IMG/VR virus record: IMGVR_UViG_3300018429_000003
Coordinates: 1-64,000 of that record
Origin: a virus
DNA: 64,000 nt
Direction: 5' to 3' (one strand)
Position numbers and translations under genes: made by a program. Positions 17,356-31,140 of this stretch are shown one piece after another. The notes under the pieces are model-generated. The model made no database searches and was not told where the DNA came from. It saw only the letters and a list, made by a program, of their open reading frames with translations. How positions within the stretch are numbered: position 1 is the stretch's first letter; every line of letters starts with the position of its first letter.

Positions 17356-18600
17356 ATGTATCTTGGAGGTGAAGCACTTGGCGAGAACGCTCTGGCAGAT
17401 AGCCACGCCTCACAGGTGTCATTCGAGATCAGCGCGCTAAGCTCGAACTTTGCTTCAGCAATCAAACAGCCCCGCCAGATTATTGCGCTTGCCACGGCAA
17501 ATGAAGCCACGTCGATCGCCTCCCGCCTGTACGTCCTTGCCTTAGACGTTGCGACCACAACTATCGCGCTAGTTGTTTACGCAGTGACAAGGGAGGTAGT
17601 CGCTACGGCAACGGCTGTGGCCACCTTCATCCAGTCGGTTCTCAGGCAGGTATTTATCGACGTCAACTCCTCGGAAGAGACTTTCGTGGTCAAGATGGCA
17701 GCGCCGATTATTCGAGCAAATGCGGCGGGCGTTCCATCGCTTTCGAGGGCGGTTTACGTATCAGTCCTATCAATCGCTAACGCTAACCCAGCAATCGCCC
17801 GGGACGTGCTTGTCGCTATCAGCGTAGATGCGAGCGGCGTTGCAACTACGGTGAAGTCAGCCTTGTTGCGCGTGGCCGTCGTAACCGCGACTGTCGAGGC
17901 GAGTGTTATTCGGTTCGTGATGTTCGTCGTGAGTGCCACTGCTAATGCGGCCAGCTTTGTCGAACGTCTTCCTTTGGTCTCGTTTGCTTTGGTAGCCAGC
18001 GGCACATCGTTTCTATCAAGAGCGGTATCGACCTCTGTAGCTGCCGCGAGCGGTAGCCTGGCCACACTTCTCAGGGATGCCGCGGTCCACGCTTCCACTC
18101 AATCCATTGGTGAACCCTCGGTTATTCGTCTGCCTGAAATGATTGTTAGCGCCAACAGTGAGGCCCAGCCTTCCATTATTAAGCTCTCACTGATTGCGTT
18201 GGAAGCAATGGCCACGGGAATGCCGGCGGAGGTGATAAAGCAAGCTCAAGTGCGTATCAGTGCAAACGCCGTGGGCCATCCTTCAATACTTCGGTCAATC
18301 ATCCTGCTCGTTGCGATTGTCGTCTCTTCTGAAGTGGCCTCGATCAAACGGGAAGTGTCGACCTCAGTACAGAGTGTGATTGCTACCGGCGTTTCTTCTG
18401 TCCTGGTGTCGCCGCTGCGAATCCTGGTGGCTCTCGCAACCGGGATGGCCTCGCTGAGTAATCGCTCTGTTGGGATTATCGTGCGGAAGGCTACTAACGC
18501 GCTGGCCTCGTTTCTTACTCTGCAGATTCGACGCGTGCGCTTGCCGTCTTCGGTGAAGCTGGACTCGGACGGAACAACCAAGGTGAAGGTTGATAATTGA
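17356..18600 (+). CDS. tandem-repeat appendage protein, 414 aa
   Basis: ATG 17356 follows GGGAGACTGA. Nearly the whole protein consists of about 20 imperfect repeats of 17-20 residues with the form (A/S)-x-x-G-x-P/A-S-(I/L/V)-x-R then a hydrophobic strand; examples are NAAGVPSLSRAVYVSVLSI, NAVGHPSILRSIILLVAIV and QSIGEPSVIRLPEMIVSA. Only the last 25 residues (SSVKLDSDGTTKVKVDN) differ. Alternating hydrophobic strands suggest a beta-solenoid or stacked fibre rather than membrane helices. It lies between the fibre and the BppU-like gene, so a virion appendage is likely. Confidence 0.55.
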   Translation: MYLGGEALGENALADSHASQVSFEISALSSNFASAIKQPRQIIALATANEATSIASRLYVLALDVATTTIALVVYAVTREVVATATAVATFIQSVLRQVFIDVNSSEETFVVKMAAPIIRANAAGVPSLSRAVYVSVLSIANANPAIARDVLVAISVDASGVATTVKSALLRVAVVTATVEASVIRFVMFVVSATANAASFVERLPLVSFALVASGTSFLSRAVSTSVAAASGSLATLLRDAAVHASTQSIGEPSVIRLPEMIVSANSEAQPSIIKLSLIALEAMATGMPAEVIKQAQVRISANAVGHPSILRSIILLVAIVVSSEVASIKREVSTSVQSVIATGVSSVLVSPLRILVALATGMASLSNRSVGIIVRKATNALASFLTLQIRRVRLPSSVKLDSDGTTKVKVDN

Positions 18601-18601
18601 G

Positions 18602-18946
18602 ATGCTGAATCCGGACATCACAATTAAGAGAGGGGACCACGGCAAGGTCGTTGCCGGTCAGTTTCTCGACTCCCACGGCGCACCGGTACCTCTTCCAGGT
18701 TCAATCACGCGCAAGCTCTTTATGCGTGGCTACTCAACCAACGTAATAAAGATCAACGGTGCGAATTTTATCTTTCTTGACGCGGAGGTTGGCACCTGGT
18801 CCTACACGATGACACCTGAGGACGTGGACACGAGCGGCGTTTACAAAATCGAGTTTGAAGTAACGCGGCCCGGAATTGTCGATACCTTTCCCACGGATCC
18901 AGAGAACCCTTACCTGATAGTGCTGATACAGGACGATATGGGCTAA
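18602..18946 (+). CDS. BppU N-terminal-like baseplate/appendage protein
   Basis: ATG 18602 gives MLNPDITIKRGD; the ITIKRGD...GxPVPLxG and GTWSYTMTPEDVDTSGVYKIEFEV pattern fits the N-terminal domain of baseplate upper proteins (DUF2479-like). The domain docks fibres onto the baseplate. At 114 residues it is only this domain. It overlaps the portal start by one base. Confidence 0.6.
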   Translation: MLNPDITIKRGDHGKVVAGQFLDSHGAPVPLPGSITRKLFMRGYSTNVIKINGANFIFLDAEVGTWSYTMTPEDVDTSGVYKIEFEVTRPGIVDTFPTDPENPYLIVLIQDDMG

Positions 18947-20439
18947 TGGCTGAGAACGACACATCGCTACCAGATGCAATGCGGGTACCTGCTTCGAAGC
19001 GCGGCTACTTCGACGAGCTCGGGCGCACCGGTCTATTGCAGTATGGTGGCTGGATTCAGGAAGAGTTTCTGTCAGAACTCACGGGCGCTCGTTGGGTTCG
19101 CATCGTCAAGGAGATGCTGGCGAACGATCCTGTTATTCATTCAATGTTCTTCACTGTTGAGTTACTAACTCGAGGCGTTGAGTGGAAGGTAACGCCGGGC
19201 TCCGACGACAACGAAGGCAGGCAACGCGCAGACTTCGTGCAATCGAACCTCGACGACATGTCACAGAGTTGGAAGGATATGATTTCCGAGATTCTGTCGT
19301 TTCTCGCCTGGGGCTTTAGCTATCACGAGATTTGCTACAAGCTGCGGAACGGTGACAAGCCGGGTACGTTTGTTAACGCTGAGGGGAAAGAAGAAGAGCT
19401 GCCGATAAGCAAGTTCAACGACGGGCGTATTGGTTGGCGCAAGCTGCCCATTCGCTCGCAAGACTCACTTGAGCGTTGGGAGATAGACGACAAAGGCGGG
19501 ATTCAAGGCTTCTGGCAAAATACACTGTTCAGCCGGAATTTTATTCCTATCGATAAAAGTCTGCTGTTCAGGACTTCGATAAACAAGAATTCGCCTGAAG
19601 GTAGGTCGCTTTGTAGACGGATATATCGGCCATGGTATTTCAAGCAAAAGATCGAGAACATCGAGGGCATTGGAATTGAGCGGGACCTTGCCGGGCTGCC
19701 CGTCATTAAGCTTCCCGCCGAGTACTTCAACCCAGCTGGTACATCTGAGCAAAAAGCAGTGCTTGCGCAGTATATGAAGGTCGCTACGAATATCCGAAAC
19801 GATGAGCAGGCAGGCCTCCTCGTGCCTTCCAACTGTTTCCCTGACACTCAGATTCCGATGTTTGACGTCAAGTTGTTATCTGCCAGCGGAACTCGCCAGT
19901 TCGACACTGGCAAGATTATTCAACGGTACGATCAGCGAATCCTCATGACGATGATGGCTGACTTTCTATTGTTGGGCCATGAGAAGGTTGGATCGTTCGC
20001 CCTGGCAAGTTCCAAGACCGAATTATTCTCCATCGCGCTCAGCGGATTCCTCGATATCATCTGTGACGTCTTCAATCGTCATCCTATCCCGAAACTGCTA
20101 CGGCTCAATGGCATGCCGACCGACAAGCAACCGATGCTCACACACGGTGATGTTGAAACGGTCGACCTTAAGGAGCTCGCACAACTTGTCTCAAGTGTCT
20201 CAGGTACCAAGATTGAATTGAGCACCGACGAACAAGACTGGGTACTATCACAAGCTGGCTTCCCTGTCGTCGCCGGGGCCCGTGAGAAGCTACAAAAGGA
20301 AGCTGAGAAGAAAGCGGAGAAGATAGCGAAGCAAACGGCAGCGAATGCGCCTCCGCTCAATAAACCTGAGACGAATGGAAATAAGCCGCCAACTCCACAA
20401 CTGCAAGAGCAGGATGGCGCTGTTCTCAATGCAACCTGA
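18946..20439 (+). CDS. portal protein (Mu gp29 / DUF935-like)
   Basis: The 497-residue protein has VHSMFF-type helical entry (DPVIHSMFFTVELLTRGVEW), the conserved WGFSYHEICYKL, RDLAGLPVIKLP and GHEKVGSFALASSKTELFS segments of DUF935 portal proteins, and a Lys/Ala/Pro-rich disordered tail. It forms the ring at one capsid vertex through which TerL moves DNA. Downstream genes (head morphogenesis, protease, capsid) follow the Mu-like order. Confidence 0.85.
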   Translation: MAENDTSLPDAMRVPASKRGYFDELGRTGLLQYGGWIQEEFLSELTGARWVRIVKEMLANDPVIHSMFFTVELLTRGVEWKVTPGSDDNEGRQRADFVQSNLDDMSQSWKDMISEILSFLAWGFSYHEICYKLRNGDKPGTFVNAEGKEEELPISKFNDGRIGWRKLPIRSQDSLERWEIDDKGGIQGFWQNTLFSRNFIPIDKSLLFRTSINKNSPEGRSLCRRIYRPWYFKQKIENIEGIGIERDLAGLPVIKLPAEYFNPAGTSEQKAVLAQYMKVATNIRNDEQAGLLVPSNCFPDTQIPMFDVKLLSASGTRQFDTGKIIQRYDQRILMTMMADFLLLGHEKVGSFALASSKTELFSIALSGFLDIICDVFNRHPIPKLLRLNGMPTDKQPMLTHGDVETVDLKELAQLVSSVSGTKIELSTDEQDWVLSQAGFPVVAGAREKLQKEAEKKAEKIAKQTAANAPPLNKPETNGNKPPTPQLQEQDGAVLNAT

Positions 20440-20659: not shown

Positions 20660-20844
20660 TGGACGTACCGCAAGGTCAATCGATAATCGACAGTGAGCTT
20701 TCGCCGGGCCATCGCGAGCTACTCGCCGATTACTTAACCTCCCTTGATGGACTAATCGAAGCCAGTCAGAAGGCTGCCGAGGCGGGCCGTCAGATGATCG
20801 CACGGGCAGAGGTCGCCGAACTGGAGGAGCTATATCGAAAGTAA
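20659..20844 (+). CDS. unknown 61-residue helical protein
   Basis: ATG 20659 with GGAGGTGGAGTG just before it. One long helix (HRELLADYLTSLDGLIEASQ continuing to the end) suggests an oligomeric assembly factor. Overlaps the next start by one base. Confidence 0.5.
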   Translation: MDVPQGQSIIDSELSPGHRELLADYLTSLDGLIEASQKAAEAGRQMIARAEVAELEELYRK

Positions 20845-21464
20845 TGCCCGTCACTCTCACTTCAGTCTCATGGGACGCTACCCGCCAACGCTACGTAACA
20901 GCGAGCGGCAAGACTCTCACTCACGCGCAGGTCCGCAAGCTCATTGATGCAGCCGTAACGGCCTCCAGCGCCCGGCTCAAAGGTTGGGCCGCTCAGATGC
21001 AAGCTGGAAAGCTCAGCGTTCCCAAGTGGCAGGCACTGATGGCCCGCGAGGTTAAGAACGTGCACGCCGCGGTGTCCGTGATAGCCAACGGCGGGCGTAA
21101 CGCAATGACACCTTCGCTTTGGGGTAAGTTGGGAGCCGACCTTAAGTTTCAATTCAAGCATCTTCGTGACTTCGCTCTTGCGGTCCCGCGAACGATTAGC
21201 GACCGAACAGGATCCATTCCACCGCGCGCTGAGATGTACGGCACTGCGGCAATCGGGAGTTACGAGAACGCGGTCTTGGAGCGTAATAAGAAGTTTGGAT
21301 TGAGCATTGCCCGGCGGGTGATGGCCCGAGGCGTCGATTCATGTGATGTCTGTATTGATGAAGACGACTTAGGCTGGCAGGACATCAATGAGATTCGGGC
21401 GATAGGAGATTCGCCGTGTATGGGCAGGTGTAATTGCCGGATAGAGTATGAAGAGGTTAGCTAA
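20844..21464 (+). CDS. head-morphogenesis protein (Mu gpF-like)
   Basis: 206 residues: a helical N-terminal region, then the phage head-morphogenesis core (RAEMYGTAAIGSYENAVLER) and a C-terminal metal-binding end with CDVC and CMGRCNCR, the usual ending of Mu F-like minor head proteins. It binds portal and helps start prohead assembly. Its stop overlaps the stop of a leftward cassette (21461-21844). Confidence 0.75.
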   Translation: MPVTLTSVSWDATRQRYVTASGKTLTHAQVRKLIDAAVTASSARLKGWAAQMQAGKLSVPKWQALMAREVKNVHAAVSVIANGGRNAMTPSLWGKLGADLKFQFKHLRDFALAVPRTISDRTGSIPPRAEMYGTAAIGSYENAVLERNKKFGLSIARRVMARGVDSCDVCIDEDDLGWQDINEIRAIGDSPCMGRCNCRIEYEEVS

Positions 21465-21688: not shown

Positions 21689-21844
21689 TTAGCGTACACG
21701 CTGCGCTGTCATCTTTATTCGATCAATAAGCCAGTCGAATCCACAGCGGCAGGTGAACCTCACTAAGTCGCCGACAATTGGTACCTTAAACAGTTCCGTG
21801 CTGCACTTCGTACAAACGGCGTTGGTTATTTCTTTGTCGCTCAT
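21689..21844 (-). CDS. leftward 51-residue zinc-ribbon protein, first gene of insert
   Basis: ATG 21844 to TAA 21689 encodes MSDKEITNAVCTKCSTEL, a loop, then FTCRCGFDWLI and a basic tail: a compact CxxC/CxC zinc ribbon. A perfect TATAAT (minus strand, 21856-21851) lies 6 bases before the ATG, so the message is probably leaderless. Function unknown; possible small regulator or host-interaction protein. Confidence 0.55.
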   Translation of the reverse strand: MSDKEITNAVCTKCSTELFKVPIVGDLVRFTCRCGFDWLIDRIKMTAQRVR

Positions 21845-21856: not shown

Positions 21857-21923
21857 CTTCCCACCAACGCCCCTCGCCTACCTCTAAAACGTAAAAATTC
21901 CCCTCGTGGTAATTTCGCCAGCG

Positions 21924-23843
21924 ATGGCAACGACCTCCAAGAAAACCCCCGGGCTCCACTACCTCTCCAAGATCGTTGCGGCGATTAAGGAGAAGCTGAA
22001 AGCCGGAAATCTCACTGAGACGGACCTTGACGGCATCGTTAAGAGCGCTCGCTCACACGCCGGAGGTAAAGCAAAAGCTGAAAAGATGAAAGCCGACACT
22101 GCGGCGCTGGTTGCGTTTGAACAGCAGTTTGAAGCTGCTGAGGCTGGCGGTAATCAAACTGGCCTGATGATTTGTTTCTATCTTTCTGATGACGCAGCGG
22201 CTCGGCTGGCTATTCCCCAAGGCGAATCACATGAAGACCTTCACCTGACCCTTTGCTACCTGGGCGACTCTTCACAGTTTGGCGAGATAGCAATTGCGGA
22301 GATTCTCATTGCTTGCCGCAATCATGCGAACTGGCAAACACCACTATCCGGCGTAATCTCTGGAACCGGCCGCTTCATAGGTGACGAGATCGACGTCTAC
22401 TACGCATCGGTCGATATCCCGATGCTTGCCGAGTTCCGTACTGACCTTGCGCGAAGGTTAGCGAGTTGCGGAACGCCCGCCAAGACAGAGCATGGTTTTG
22501 ACCCGCACATCACGCTCGCCTACTTGGAAAAAGACGATCCAACGCCTGACTACGATGTGAGTGATATCGAGCTTCGGTTCGACACCATGTCCGTGATGAT
22601 TGCAGGGCGACGCGTTGACCTACCAATGGCCATGTCGAGCAATTTCAACGAGGTTGCCGATTTGTGCAACCAGTCAGGGCCCATGCGCTTATTCATGGAA
22701 CAGCAGTTCGCGGACGCGCCCGAGTGGATTAACTATCTGCCAAAGCCCGGTGTATACACCAGCCCGCGCTATGGGCAAATCACCATCACAAAGGAGCGCA
22801 ACCAGAGCTTTGTAGATAACTTCCTTAACGAGGTCTACCAGAAACAGCTTCCGATCGATAACGAGCATGATCTCGCGCAGTCCGGCGCTTCTGGCTGGAT
22901 TACGTCGATGAAGATCAACGACGACGGAGGCGTTGACGCGAAAACCGAGTGGACCGATCGCGGCAAGAAACTAATCGAGGAAGAGCGGTTCAAGTATTTT
23001 TCGCCCGCCTGGTTTGATAGCTGGACCGATCCGGTTAACCCGGAAACCAGACATAAAAACATCGCAATCGGCGGCGCACTGTGCATTCGCCCTTTCTTCA
23101 AAGAAAACGCTTTGCGCCCAATCGTGGCTAACGAGCAAGGCCTTTCCATTCTTACCGGTGATGTTCCGGAAAACTTAAATTCATCCGATACGGTAAACCT
23201 ACACTTCGAGGCGCTCACGCCAGTAACCGATCAACAAGGAGCTAGTGACATGACCCAAAGTGCTAATCCGACGCCGCAACAGTTCACGGAACTGGAAACC
23301 AAATTCCAAGCGGCGGAAAAACTGGCCAACGAAGAGAAAGCCCGTGCGGATGCCGCGGAGGCCAAGCTCAACGAGCAAAAGCAGGCCGCCGAAGCTGCAA
23401 CGACCGAACTCACCAAAGCCACGGAATCAGTCACGAAGCTGAATGAGCGCGTCGCAAGTCTTGAGAAAGACAAGCGCACTTCTCGCTTTACCGAAATCTC
23501 ACGCAACTGGATTGGCGAGCGCCAGGGCCACATCGACATGCTCGAACTCATCGTTAACGCCACCGAGAAGGGCGAAGAGTCCACGGAGTTCAAGGCTTAT
23601 GTCGAGTCTCAGAACGCTGCGGTCGAACGTGTGAGAACTGCCGGCTTGTTCACTGAAGCTGGAAGCACGGCGCCGGCTGCTGGCGGTGCGATTCAGAAGA
23701 TTGAAGCGAAGGCTCGCAAGATGGCCGAAGACAGCGCCGGCCAGCTGAGCTACGAGGCCGCAATGACTGCCGTTTTGGAAGCTGAGCCGCAACTCTACAA
23801 AGAGCACCTTGCGGAAATGCGCGGCGGAGCAGTCGCCGGTTAG
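21924..23843 (+). CDS. 2H-phosphoesterase / capsid protease / scaffold fusion protein
   Basis: One 639-residue frame holds three modules. Residues about 75-235 form a 2H phosphoesterase-like domain with both signature motifs intact, HLTL (107-110) and HITL (195-198). About 264-415 is a Mu gpI/XkdF-like prohead protease (APEWINYLPKPGVY, PIDNEHD, YFSPAWF). From Met443 a Glu/Ala/Lys coiled coil and helical tail form the scaffold. ATG 21924 was chosen; GTG 21906 would add six residues. The protease should cut scaffold during maturation; the 2H domain may act on RNA or cyclic nucleotides. Neighbours are head morphogenesis and decoration genes. Confidence 0.75.
   Translation: MATTSKKTPGLHYLSKIVAAIKEKLKAGNLTETDLDGIVKSARSHAGGKAKAEKMKADTAALVAFEQQFEAAEAGGNQTGLMICFYLSDDAAARLAIPQGESHEDLHLTLCYLGDSSQFGEIAIAEILIACRNHANWQTPLSGVISGTGRFIGDEIDVYYASVDIPMLAEFRTDLARRLASCGTPAKTEHGFDPHITLAYLEKDDPTPDYDVSDIELRFDTMSVMIAGRRVDLPMAMSSNFNEVADLCNQSGPMRLFMEQQFADAPEWINYLPKPGVYTSPRYGQITITKERNQSFVDNFLNEVYQKQLPIDNEHDLAQSGASGWITSMKINDDGGVDAKTEWTDRGKKLIEEERFKYFSPAWFDSWTDPVNPETRHKNIAIGGALCIRPFFKENALRPIVANEQGLSILTGDVPENLNSSDTVNLHFEALTPVTDQQGASDMTQSANPTPQQFTELETKFQAAEKLANEEKARADAAEAKLNEQKQAAEAATTELTKATESVTKLNERVASLEKDKRTSRFTEISRNWIGERQGHIDMLELIVNATEKGEESTEFKAYVESQNAAVERVRTAGLFTEAGSTAPAAGGAIQKIEAKARKMAEDSAGQLSYEAAMTAVLEAEPQLYKEHLAEMRGGAVAG
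23250..23843 (+). CDS. nested in-frame scaffold protein start
   Basis: Inside the fusion gene an ATG at 23250 (codon 443) has AAGGAG at 23236-23241, 8 bases before it. Translation from here gives a 197-residue product that is just the coiled-coil scaffold. This is the arrangement of lambda C/Nu3, where a separate scaffold is made from the 3' end of the protease gene. The same leader AACAAGGAGCTAGT stands before the gene at 25399. Confidence 0.65.
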   Translation: MTQSANPTPQQFTELETKFQAAEKLANEEKARADAAEAKLNEQKQAAEAATTELTKATESVTKLNERVASLEKDKRTSRFTEISRNWIGERQGHIDMLELIVNATEKGEESTEFKAYVESQNAAVERVRTAGLFTEAGSTAPAAGGAIQKIEAKARKMAEDSAGQLSYEAAMTAVLEAEPQLYKEHLAEMRGGAVAG

Positions 23844-23910: not shown

Positions 23911-24285
23911 ATGGCATACGAAATTCCCGGTCCAGGTTGGCCTCTTGAAGCTGCTGCCGATTACCGAACCAAGCAGTTCTACTTCCTGACCGTCGACGGT
24001 AACGGTCGTGCGCTCCTTCCCACTGGTGACGGCACCGTTTGTGTTGGCGTTCTCCAAAACGACCCGCTGCAATTTGAGGCTGCGACAATTGTTGACCGTG
24101 GCATCGTCAAGCTCGTTTCGAACGGCACGATTGAGGCCGGCGACAACGTCGCGTGCGCCAATGGCGGCAAAGGTAAGGAAGCTGCCTCCGGTGAATACAT
24201 TCAGGGTACTGCACTTGAAGGCGATGGCGCTGTTGACGGCGCGATCATTTCAGTCCTTTTACGGCCTCAGGGTCGGTTGGCTTAA
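23911..24285 (+). CDS. capsid decoration protein (DUF2190-like)
   Basis: 124 residues, preceded by AAGGAGCGACACAA. Alternating strands and turns with RALLPTGDGTVCVGVLQND, VDRGIVKLVSNGTIEAGDNV and GDGAVDGAIISVLLR match small head-decoration/stabilising proteins encoded just before the capsid gene. It would bind the capsid surface after expansion. Confidence 0.65.
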   Translation: MAYEIPGPGWPLEAAADYRTKQFYFLTVDGNGRALLPTGDGTVCVGVLQNDPLQFEAATIVDRGIVKLVSNGTIEAGDNVACANGGKGKEAASGEYIQGTALEGDGAVDGAIISVLLRPQGRLA

Positions 24286-24355: not shown

Positions 24356-25330
24356 ATGCAACCAACTCCAGGCCAGGTCCACGTAGATCGGCTGCTTTCA
24401 AATCTGTCGATTGCGTTTATCCAGGGACTAGATCAATTCATCGCGAACAAGATCTACCCCGTCGTACCGGTCGAGAAGCGGTCGGACCTGTTTCGCGTCT
24501 ATCCAAAGGACGACTGGTTCAGGGATGAGGCGAAGAAGCGCGCTCCTGGTACAGAATCAGCAGGTGGCGGATACGACGTCTCCACTGATAGCTATTTCTG
24601 TGAGACCTACGCGTTTCACAAGGATATTGACGATCAGACCCGCGACAATTCAGATGCGGATCTAAATCTCGATCGCGATACGACTCAGTTTGTCACCACA
24701 AAGATGTTGCTCAAGCGCGAGAAGGTTTGGGTCACGAAGAACTTTCAACCAGGCGTGTGGGGAACGACCACCACAGGCGTAGCGGCTGCCCCTGGGGCCG
24801 GTCAGGTGCTTCGCTGGGATGATGCCAATTCTGATCCCCGCGCGAACGTGAAGGCTGCCCGTCGCCAAATTCTCGCAACCACCGGCTACAAGCCCAACAC
24901 TCTTGTTGTGCACTATGACGTCATGGATGCGCTGATTGACCATCCGGACTTCATTGAGCGCATTAAGTACACATCGCGCGAGTCCATCAACGAAGACGCG
25001 CTCGCTAAGATTTTCGGTGTTGACCGTGTGCTCGTTGCAGGTGCTATTGAAAACTCCGCCAAAGAAGGTGTCTCACCTGCCGTGATCGACTTCGTTTACG
25101 GGAAACATGCGTGGCTGGGCTACGTAGCGCCGTCGCCAAGCCTGATGGCTCCTTCAGCTGGTTACACGTTCTCATGGAAGCACGCGCCGTTGAATAACAA
25201 TATGGGCGTTCAGATCAAGCGCTTTCGCATGGAACATATCGAATCGGAACGCATCGAAGGTCAGATCGCCTTTGACGATAAAATCGTTTCGACAGAATTG
25301 GGGTATTTTTTCGAGTCAATTGTTGCCTGA
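24356..25330 (+). CDS. major capsid protein
   Basis: 324 residues in the normal place after protease/scaffold and decoration genes. Segments such as IANKIYPVVPVEKRSDLFRVY, ETYAFHKDIDDQTRDN, NTLVVHYDVMDALIDHPDF and KYTSRESINEDALAKIFGVDRVLV are typical of the HK97-fold capsid proteins found with Mu-like portals. ATG follows TAGGAGCATCTACC. Forms the icosahedral shell. Confidence 0.85.
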   Translation: MQPTPGQVHVDRLLSNLSIAFIQGLDQFIANKIYPVVPVEKRSDLFRVYPKDDWFRDEAKKRAPGTESAGGGYDVSTDSYFCETYAFHKDIDDQTRDNSDADLNLDRDTTQFVTTKMLLKREKVWVTKNFQPGVWGTTTTGVAAAPGAGQVLRWDDANSDPRANVKAARRQILATTGYKPNTLVVHYDVMDALIDHPDFIERIKYTSRESINEDALAKIFGVDRVLVAGAIENSAKEGVSPAVIDFVYGKHAWLGYVAPSPSLMAPSAGYTFSWKHAPLNNNMGVQIKRFRMEHIESERIEGQIAFDDKIVSTELGYFFESIVA

Positions 25331-30002: not shown

Positions 30003-30350
30003 ATGCCTGTCAAAACCAAACGCACAAGTTCAACGATGAGCACTTACCACGCGACCGCGAAACGTCTTAACGAAACCGTCGAGCGTCACGCGAAGGGCGC
30101 AGCGGTTCTGGTGAGTGAACTGGCTCCCGTAAGTGAGAAGGACCATCTGCATATGTACCAAACTGTGAGCGCGCGGGAGGAGAGAAAGGGCAGGTGGAGA
30201 ATAATCGTAGCTGCTGTTTATTCCGTCTTTCAAGAGTATGGGACGATTTTTATGGAGGCTCAGCCATTCTTCAGACCTGGAATTGCGTCGGCCCGAAGAG
30301 CACTTCGACGTGATTTGAAGATTGTGAAGGGACCACCGCGGATTAGCTAA
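30003..30350 (+). CDS. HK97 gp10-like tail-completion protein
   Basis: ATG 30003. 115 residues with the family ending VYSVFQEYGTIFMEAQPFFR followed by PGIASARRAL, typical of HK97 gp10-type neck/tail proteins. In most phages this gene precedes the tube gene; here it lies after the chaperones. Its stop overlaps the stop of the leftward endonuclease gene. Confidence 0.65.
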   Translation: MPVKTKRTSSTMSTYHATAKRLNETVERHAKGAAVLVSELAPVSEKDHLHMYQTVSAREERKGRWRIIVAAVYSVFQEYGTIFMEAQPFFRPGIASARRALRRDLKIVKGPPRIS

Positions 30351-31140
30351 TTTTTGTTCTCTTTCTCTTTATCCACGCACTGCGGCGATGGCCCGCATTT
30401 TCTTTAGGTGTTGCCCACCTGCAATTCCCCGGTTCATAGTCACCGTCATTGTTAATACGATCAATTTGATGCCTGGAAGTTGGCCGTCTCCCCATATCAG
30501 CAAGAAAGTTTTCGAAGGTCTGCCAGCGCTCACATACCTTTATTCCACGGCCTCCGTAGTATTCCCAACTGGCCATTCTTGGATTTGAGCAGCGTGATTT
30601 CATCCCAGCCCAAACTTTATATTCTGCGCTCTTAGTCTCGCCGTGGACCAAGTTCCCCTTATTCTCAAGTGGAATTCCAAGATGTCTGCAATGCGATGCG
30701 ATGCAATTACCCGAAACCGCAAAGCGCCTACCCACATCATTAGCTGATAACCCGTCGTTAATCAGTTCGCGCAATTCATCAGCGGACGGCATCGGCAAGT
30801 CCTCTTTGCGTCGCGTAGTCCATATCTTTGGCTTTGCAATGCCGTGCCGTTTAAGCCAGAAAGGGACCGCGGTGAAGTCCACGCCGAACATCGCAGCGAT
30901 TTCACGGTAACTATGATGCTCACCGTGAACCAATCTCTCTAGATCTTCCTTCGTGGGTTCTTGCTGTCCTCGATTCAGCAGGCCGTTATGACTTGCTCGC
31001 GGTTGAATCCCATAGTGAAGTAGCCACCGGCGCACCGTGATGTGAGCAACCTCATAGATGCTCCCAATCTGACGTGTAGTAAGGCGTTGAGCCTCATACA
31101 AGTCGCGAACCGTTTCTTTGCTTGGACGTTTACGTTTCAC
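30343..31140 (-). CDS. HTH plus HNH/AP2-type homing endonuclease
   Basis: 265 residues on the opposite strand to the tail operon. Three or four helix-turn-helix repeats fill about residues 5-160 (LTTRQIGSIYEVAHITVRRW; SYREIAAMFGVDFTAVPFWL; LSANDVGRRFAVSGNCIASH). The C-terminal 90 residues (VWAGMKSRCSNPRMASWEYY; GGRGIKVCERWQTFENFLAD; QIDRINNDGDYEPGNCRWAT) match free-standing phage homing nucleases. Serial HTHs would read a long target. It overlaps the gp10-like stop, so it probably invaded the late operon. Confidence 0.75.
   Translation of the reverse strand: MKRKRPSKETVRDLYEAQRLTTRQIGSIYEVAHITVRRWLLHYGIQPRASHNGLLNRGQQEPTKEDLERLVHGEHHSYREIAAMFGVDFTAVPFWLKRHGIAKPKIWTTRRKEDLPMPSADELRELINDGLSANDVGRRFAVSGNCIASHCRHLGIPLENKGNLVHGETKSAEYKVWAGMKSRCSNPRMASWEYYGGRGIKVCERWQTFENFLADMGRRPTSRHQIDRINNDGDYEPGNCRWATPKENAGHRRSAWIKRKRTKIS

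Follow-up and report, generated by a model that had tools for sequence, protein, structure and literature searches.

The locus raises the question of what a 2H phosphoesterase domain does at the front of a gene that otherwise encodes a capsid maturation protease and its scaffold. We studied it within the window, the whole analysed stretch of 64,000 nucleotides, which comes from a 66 kb virus record; this record encodes a terminase and an integrase and therefore probably belongs to a temperate tailed phage. The frame of 639 codons runs without interruption from an ATG at 21924 to a stop at 23843. A GTG at 21906 is a possible alternative upstream start, and the ATG is favoured because the relative on contig L008, which is 64% identical, begins with an ATG at the matching place. 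The preliminary description had placed a 2H domain with two intact H-x-T-x motifs at about residues 75-235, followed in the same frame by a Mu I/XkdF-like protease and a coiled-coil scaffold, and this layout was recovered by our analysis (Table 1).

Pfam detects PF13563 (2_5_RNA_ligase2) at residues 99-207 (E 2.5e-8; 34.6 bits, cut-off 27), and we set the domain at residues 78-236; PF10123 (Mu-like_Pro) matches residues 286-363 (E 5.7e-11; 43 bits, cut-off 25.2). The PHROGs matches of the fusion protein agree with those of Pfam, with an RNA ligase family (E 9e-28) and a head maturation protease family (E 9e-14), while phmmer with the whole protein against the PDB gave coiled-coil noise only. 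The fusion is not a product of chance, since the complete architecture was found again in four other virus contigs (L062/L008, L067, L063 and L068) at about 35-65% identity. The name "RNA ligase", which many records of relatives carry, was rejected: no ligase domain was found, only the 2H domain.

Table 1. Position and supporting evidence of the features of the fusion gene and of the neighbouring head genes in the window.
Feature	Positions	Strand	Evidence
2H / Mu-I-type protease / scaffold fusion protein, 639 aa	21924..23843	+	translation, Pfam, PHROGs, four full-length homologues
N-terminal helices and linker, residues 1-77, with SHAGGKAKAE motif	21924..22154	+	alignments, model
2H phosphoesterase domain, residues 78-236	22155..22631	+	PF13563, AlphaFold2, PDB matches
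First catalytic motif, H107-L-T109 (HLTL)	22242..22250	+	His in 72/72, Thr in 71/72 sequences
Second catalytic motif, H195-I-T197 (HITL)	22506..22514	+	PH in 72/72 (partly selected), Thr in 70/72
Tyr200, at the place of LigT Arg130, five residues past the second His	22521..22523	+	alignment
Linker, variable and predicted disordered, residues 237-270	22632..22733	+	pLDDT about 30 (238-270 below 50)
Mu-I-type capsid maturation protease, residues 271-404	22734..23135	+	PF10123, phrog_328
AAGGAG ribosome-binding site of the nested scaffold gene (predicted)	23236..23241	+	sequence; same layout in relatives
Scaffold domain / nested scaffold gene, residues 443-639	23250..23843	+	in-frame ATG at residue 443; long helix
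Mu-type portal protein, upstream	18946..20439	+	PF06074 E 1.1e-29; phrog_113
Probable MuF-like minor head protein	20844..21464	+	C-terminal Cys motif, place after portal; phrog_24776 (function not known)
Small head protein, likely cement or scaffold-type	23911..24285	+	phrog_673 E 1.8e-17, labelled head scaffolding protein
Major capsid protein (family E)	24356..25330	+	phrog_1005 E 3.6e-90; PF03864 E 1.7e-5

To place the 2H domain among its relatives, viral contigs were scanned with a 2H profile and with a full-length profile, which gave 53 and 37 loci; with near-copies removed and the window included, 72 sequences were retained, gathered with patterns that contain part of the second motif. 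The full-length-profile scan of genome contigs found no relative, and the 2H-only scan of genome contigs returned mostly cellular ThpR proteins, which served as a control. The catalytic His residues, on whose conservation in relatives the preliminary description had let its interpretation depend, are kept in every sequence of the set. The conservation of the first is unselected, because its motif is absent from the search patterns, and the invariance of the second is partly selected, because the PH of that motif was included in two of them.

The AlphaFold2 model of the domain, made from the 72-sequence alignment, is confident (pLDDT 92.8, pTM 0.85) and has the 2H fold, together with the two H-x-[T/S] motifs of the superfamily. 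Its top match in the PDB is the Deinococcus CPDase 5h7e (Z 18.1, rmsd 2.7, 159 aligned); the Thermus protein TT0787 reaches Z 17.6, E. coli LigT Z 16.3 (rmsd 2.4, 151 aligned) and Acb1 (7t26) Z 11.3 (rmsd 3.3, 129 aligned), and mitoribosomal 2H proteins are also among the matches. The model thus shares the fold of Acb1 too, but less closely than that of the RNA cyclic phosphodiesterases. Sequence profiles rank the families in the same order as the fold, with RNA 2',3'-cyclic phosphodiesterases nearest and Acb1 further away. In each of the eight proteins scanned, TIGR02258 (ThpR/LigT) aligns with the 2H part but stays below its cut-off (31.3 bits for the window protein against 65.7). PF23474, the Pfam model of Acb1, finds nothing in the window protein even at E values as high as 1, and gives relatives only about 17-22 bits, with a cut-off of 27. 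Judged by the model, the fold assignment is right, and the substrate is not fixed by fold or profile matches. The results as a whole indicate a real and probably active 2H enzyme, linked to the head as an effector domain.

The protease that follows has its His315 (22866-22868) and Ser360 (23001-23003), which are invariant across six phages, including Rhodobacter phage RC1 and Microcystis phage yong1. The Mu-I proteins of RC1 and yong1 open with the protease and have no 2H domain, which is therefore an added N-terminal module. Between the window protein and that of L062, identity is 74% in the 2H domain and 74% in the protease but only 50% (residues 237-270) and 34% in the linkers, which argues that the 2H domain and the protease are separate domains under selection. 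A second stretch of predicted disorder lies between protease and scaffold. Because the linkers that flank the 2H domain are predicted to be disordered, the domain could be cut free, as the preliminary description had supposed. In the full-length AlphaFold model the protease part has a pLDDT of about 55-78, too weak for a claim about its fold, and a fold search with this model returned 2H matches only.

The scaffold part contains a long predicted helix at residues 454-525, consistent with the coiled coil proposed before, to which we add a nested start at 23250, eight bases downstream of an AAGGAG. This start is kept in three of the four relatives with the full architecture (L062, L067 and L063), and to judge by the sequence it very likely yields a separate scaffold protein as well. 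In Mu I/Z-type genes the scaffold is made from a nested start, and the window gene resembles Mu gpI/gpZ both in this and in its PF10123 His/Ser protease; unlike it, the I proteins of the other phages examined start directly with the protease, with no 2H domain in front. The scaffold part of the relative at L067:1865-4063 contains a DnaJ-type CxxCxGxG zinc-binding insertion at about residues 515-541, which is unusual for a scaffold.

Upstream of the 2H domain, helices are predicted at residues 10-26, 32-44 and 57-71; confidence is low around 47-71. The SHAGGKAKAE motif (22053-22082), which precedes the domain, is unchanged in two relatives and almost unchanged in a third, and its HAGGKA core occurs once in the window. 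Whether this motif may be a cleavage or docking site is a question that its conservation raises.

The relatives carry the 2H domain on a wide range of head proteins. According to Pfam and iterated models, 41 of the 72 sequences share their ORF with a head domain: a portal in 14, an XkdF-type protease in seven, an HK97-type S78 protease in six, a Mu-I protease in five, MuF alone in five and a major capsid protein in four, two of these being triple fusions of 2H, protease and capsid protein. Leaving the window aside, a head or packaging gene lies within the fetched stretch at 62 of 71 loci, and no head gene was found at the other nine with the small model set used. This proportion (87%) is higher than the window by itself would lead one to expect, with about half of its positions within 7 kb of a head or packaging model hit. 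The carrier types are scattered on the tree and many changes are needed to explain them; most branches of this tree are weak. Fusion to almost every kind of head protein fits carriage of the 2H domain in the prohead. It suggests, without proving, that virions take the domain along for use against host RNA or alarm molecules.

Several individual fusions deserve a record of their own. At L088:6995-9943 and L089:4793-7465, 2H, HK97-type protease and major capsid protein are joined in single ORFs. The protein at L099:6824-10588 combines 2H, a uracil-DNA glycosylase and an XkdF protease, which suggests that protease genes carry other enzymes too. Elsewhere the domain is fused with a Zeta toxin (L041:2842-4359), with MuF and an ADP-ribosyltransferase (L049:6155-10804), with NUDIX (L013:6026-8290) and with a topoisomerase IB-like domain (L097:6818-10318); the ADP-ribosyltransferase, Zeta toxin and NUDIX partners are known or suspected effectors.

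One active-site position separates the phage domains from their cellular relatives. Arg130 of LigT is the binding residue for the nucleophilic water and for the phosphate of the product (PMC5283653), and the window protein has Tyr200 at this place. Tyr is found there in 71 of the 72 phage sequences, and in 29 of the 30 rows whose search pattern left the residue free, whereas Arg occupies it in 51 of the 52 bacterial relatives that could be scored, which were collected with patterns lacking that residue (Fisher p = 7e-20 for the unbiased set, a value that is only indicative because the rows are related by descent). E. coli ThpR has Arg130 and T4 57B (Acb1), according to the T4 record, Tyr118; six annotated phage proteins have Tyr in four cases, Trp in one and Lys in one. 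A joint tree divides the 65 phage rows from the 21 ThpR rows without exception, with support of 94 for the ThpR side and 57 for the phage side, and the branch of T4 Acb1 is too long to be placed. The phage 2H group is distinct from cellular ThpR, and the position offers a simple marker to tell the phage enzymes from housekeeping ThpR.

By its residues, the phage group appears to have abandoned the ThpR active-site arrangement and to have one trait in common with Acb1, a hint, and no proof, of 2'-OH-assisted cleavage rather than action on 2',3'-cyclic ends. This residue is like that of Acb1, which the preliminary description had named, although profile and fold are nearer to ThpR/LigT. With ThpR/LigT the window protein shares the 2H fold (Z 16-18) and the HLTL and PHITL motifs, but ThpR/LigT is a stand-alone cellular enzyme. 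With Acb1 it shares the fold, two HxT motifs and the Tyr five residues past the second His, and differs in that Acb1 is small and stands alone. The T4 57B gene (L103:92-911, which is T4 73591-74410) is still annotated "RNA ligase" and adjoins ipI, whose annotation is internal virion protein.

Our preferred reading, to which we give a probability of about 0.45, is that the locus is a capsid protease-scaffold gene with an enzyme as cargo, delivered by way of the head to protect the phage by cutting alarm nucleotides or RNA. The C-terminal scaffold should draw the full-length protein into the prohead, as in Mu gpI/gpZ-type genes, so that the 2H domain would end inside the shell. The protease would then cut the flanking linkers and some of the 2H domain may be kept in the head, although retention is not assured, since maturing heads commonly lose their scaffold and protease by exit or degradation. 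Retained enzyme may pass with the DNA into the next host. There its two histidines might, with no need of a metal, attack a phosphodiester bond with assistance from the 2'-OH; the target could conceivably be alarm signals made of cyclic or 2'-5' oligonucleotides, or else host RNA, and the phage would be protected. In the carriers, the 2H domain would sit on parts which, by the topology of heads of the HK97, SPP1 and T4 types, face the prohead interior: protease, scaffold, the N-terminus of the capsid protein, the C-terminal side of the portal, and MuF. T4 Alt and the internal proteins are housed in the head and ejected with the DNA. The simplest common reason for such carriers would be an enzyme meant for the head interior and for ejection with the DNA.

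The domain may instead be an RNA enzyme that trims or heals 2',3'-cyclic RNA ends or acts as an RNA-cutting enzyme of the Usb1 kind; its substrates could include tRNAs that a host defence system has cleaved, and the head linkage would serve only for delivery. The ranking of profile and fold matches and the sub-threshold TIGR02258 hits in all eight proteins speak for this, and RNase action is among the options put forward in PMC5512222. The replacement by Tyr of the phosphate-binding Arg130 of LigT (PMC5283653) speaks against it; a non-exhaustive scan of the window genes detected neither an RNA ligase nor a 5' kinase, and such 2H domains have no RNA-ligase association according to PMC5512222. 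On balance we find this reading rather unlikely. The chief alternative as to timing is that the domain stays on the protease during assembly and degrades an alarm nucleotide where head assembly is sensed, and not in the next host. Occurrence of 2H on proteases of several families would fit, as would an interaction, reported by Richmond-Buccola 2024 according to a review (PMC12409349), of a phage prohead protease with a CBASS sensor, with growth arrest as the outcome; yet portals, MuF and capsid proteins carry the domain as well, and we regard local action of this kind as improbable.

Least probable of all is a purely structural role, in which the 2H fold would serve head assembly as a spacer or as a binding module, irrespective of any catalysis. 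The domain does occur mostly in assembly proteins, and some of its relatives elsewhere are structural, such as the mitoribosomal proteins among the PDB matches; but the catalytic His and Thr are almost invariant over strongly diverged carriers, the domain sits on unrelated partners, and the protease works without it in other phages. Returning to the cargo reading, a bolder form of it, which we consider unlikely, is that the protease-scaffold gene is a general cargo slot and the Tyr-marked, phage-only 2H clade a virion-carried enzyme against the cyclic oligonucleotide signals of defences that sense head assembly, so that alarm trigger and antidote would be joined in one polypeptide.

The interpretation offered by the preliminary description is, as a whole, partly supported, and its general idea was already published in 2017 and 2022 (PMC5512222, PMC9503650). 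Fusions of 2H domains with MuF and with portal proteins were described by Iyer et al. (2017, PMC5512222), who suggested that they act as RNases or against signals; packaging and injection of such fusions was proposed in 2022 (PMC9503650), where NUDIX domains fused to a capsid-processing peptidase are also described. Those fusions and ours have in common a 2H domain on a head protein, but the carrier here is a capsid protease with its scaffold, and relatives are attached also to the HK97 and XkdF types of protease and to the major capsid protein. Our results extend these proposals by the protease, scaffold and capsid-protein carriers, the Arg-to-Tyr signature and the split from ThpR. No description of 2H on a Mu-I protease-scaffold or capsid protein, or of the Arg/Tyr split, was found in the literature covered, which lay mostly outside subscription journals. 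The phage metallophosphoesterase of PMC12287305 belongs to another superfamily and was set aside.

A close described counterpart is Laroyevirus gp18 (Arthrobacter phages Edmundo, Salgado and Wheelbite; phrog_14859), in which 2H and a capsid protease follow each other in one gene between the MuF and capsid genes. Like the window protein, gp18 keeps both HxT motifs and the Tyr; unlike it, gp18 has an XkdF-type (S78_2) protease and no scaffold part, and identity is 31-38%. GenBank labels these Arthrobacter 2H-XkdF fusions "RNA ligase" or "capsid maturation protease", and across many phages the genes so labelled seem to encode a single phage-specific 2H enzyme. If packaged, it would be a widespread virion-carried counter-defence or RNA-acting enzyme, and it could be tested directly in cultured relatives from phages of Arthrobacter, Gordonia and Streptomyces.

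The gene layout around the fusion fits a head-packaged (polyvalent-type) effector, with the effector domain fused to protease and scaffold and with portal and terminase in the window. The product of 20844-21464 has no Pfam match, and its C-terminal Cys motif and position weakly suggest a MuF-like minor head protein. Between it and the 2H gene lies a gap of 0.45 kb, which looks inserted because the two genes are only 93 bases apart in L008; the gap contains a small Cys-rich ORF of 51 aa on the minus strand (21689-21844, CTKC...CRC). Upstream of the portal, an Ala/Val/Ser-rich repetitive protein (17356-18600 in the window, 414 aa; L008:327-3110, 927 aa) has short diverged repeats and looks like a repeat expansion in a virion or surface protein. 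Within the morphogenesis module, a minus-strand ORF at 30343-31140 has HTH-like repeats and a GGRGIKVCERW motif, which we take to be typical of HNH/NUMOD homing endonucleases.
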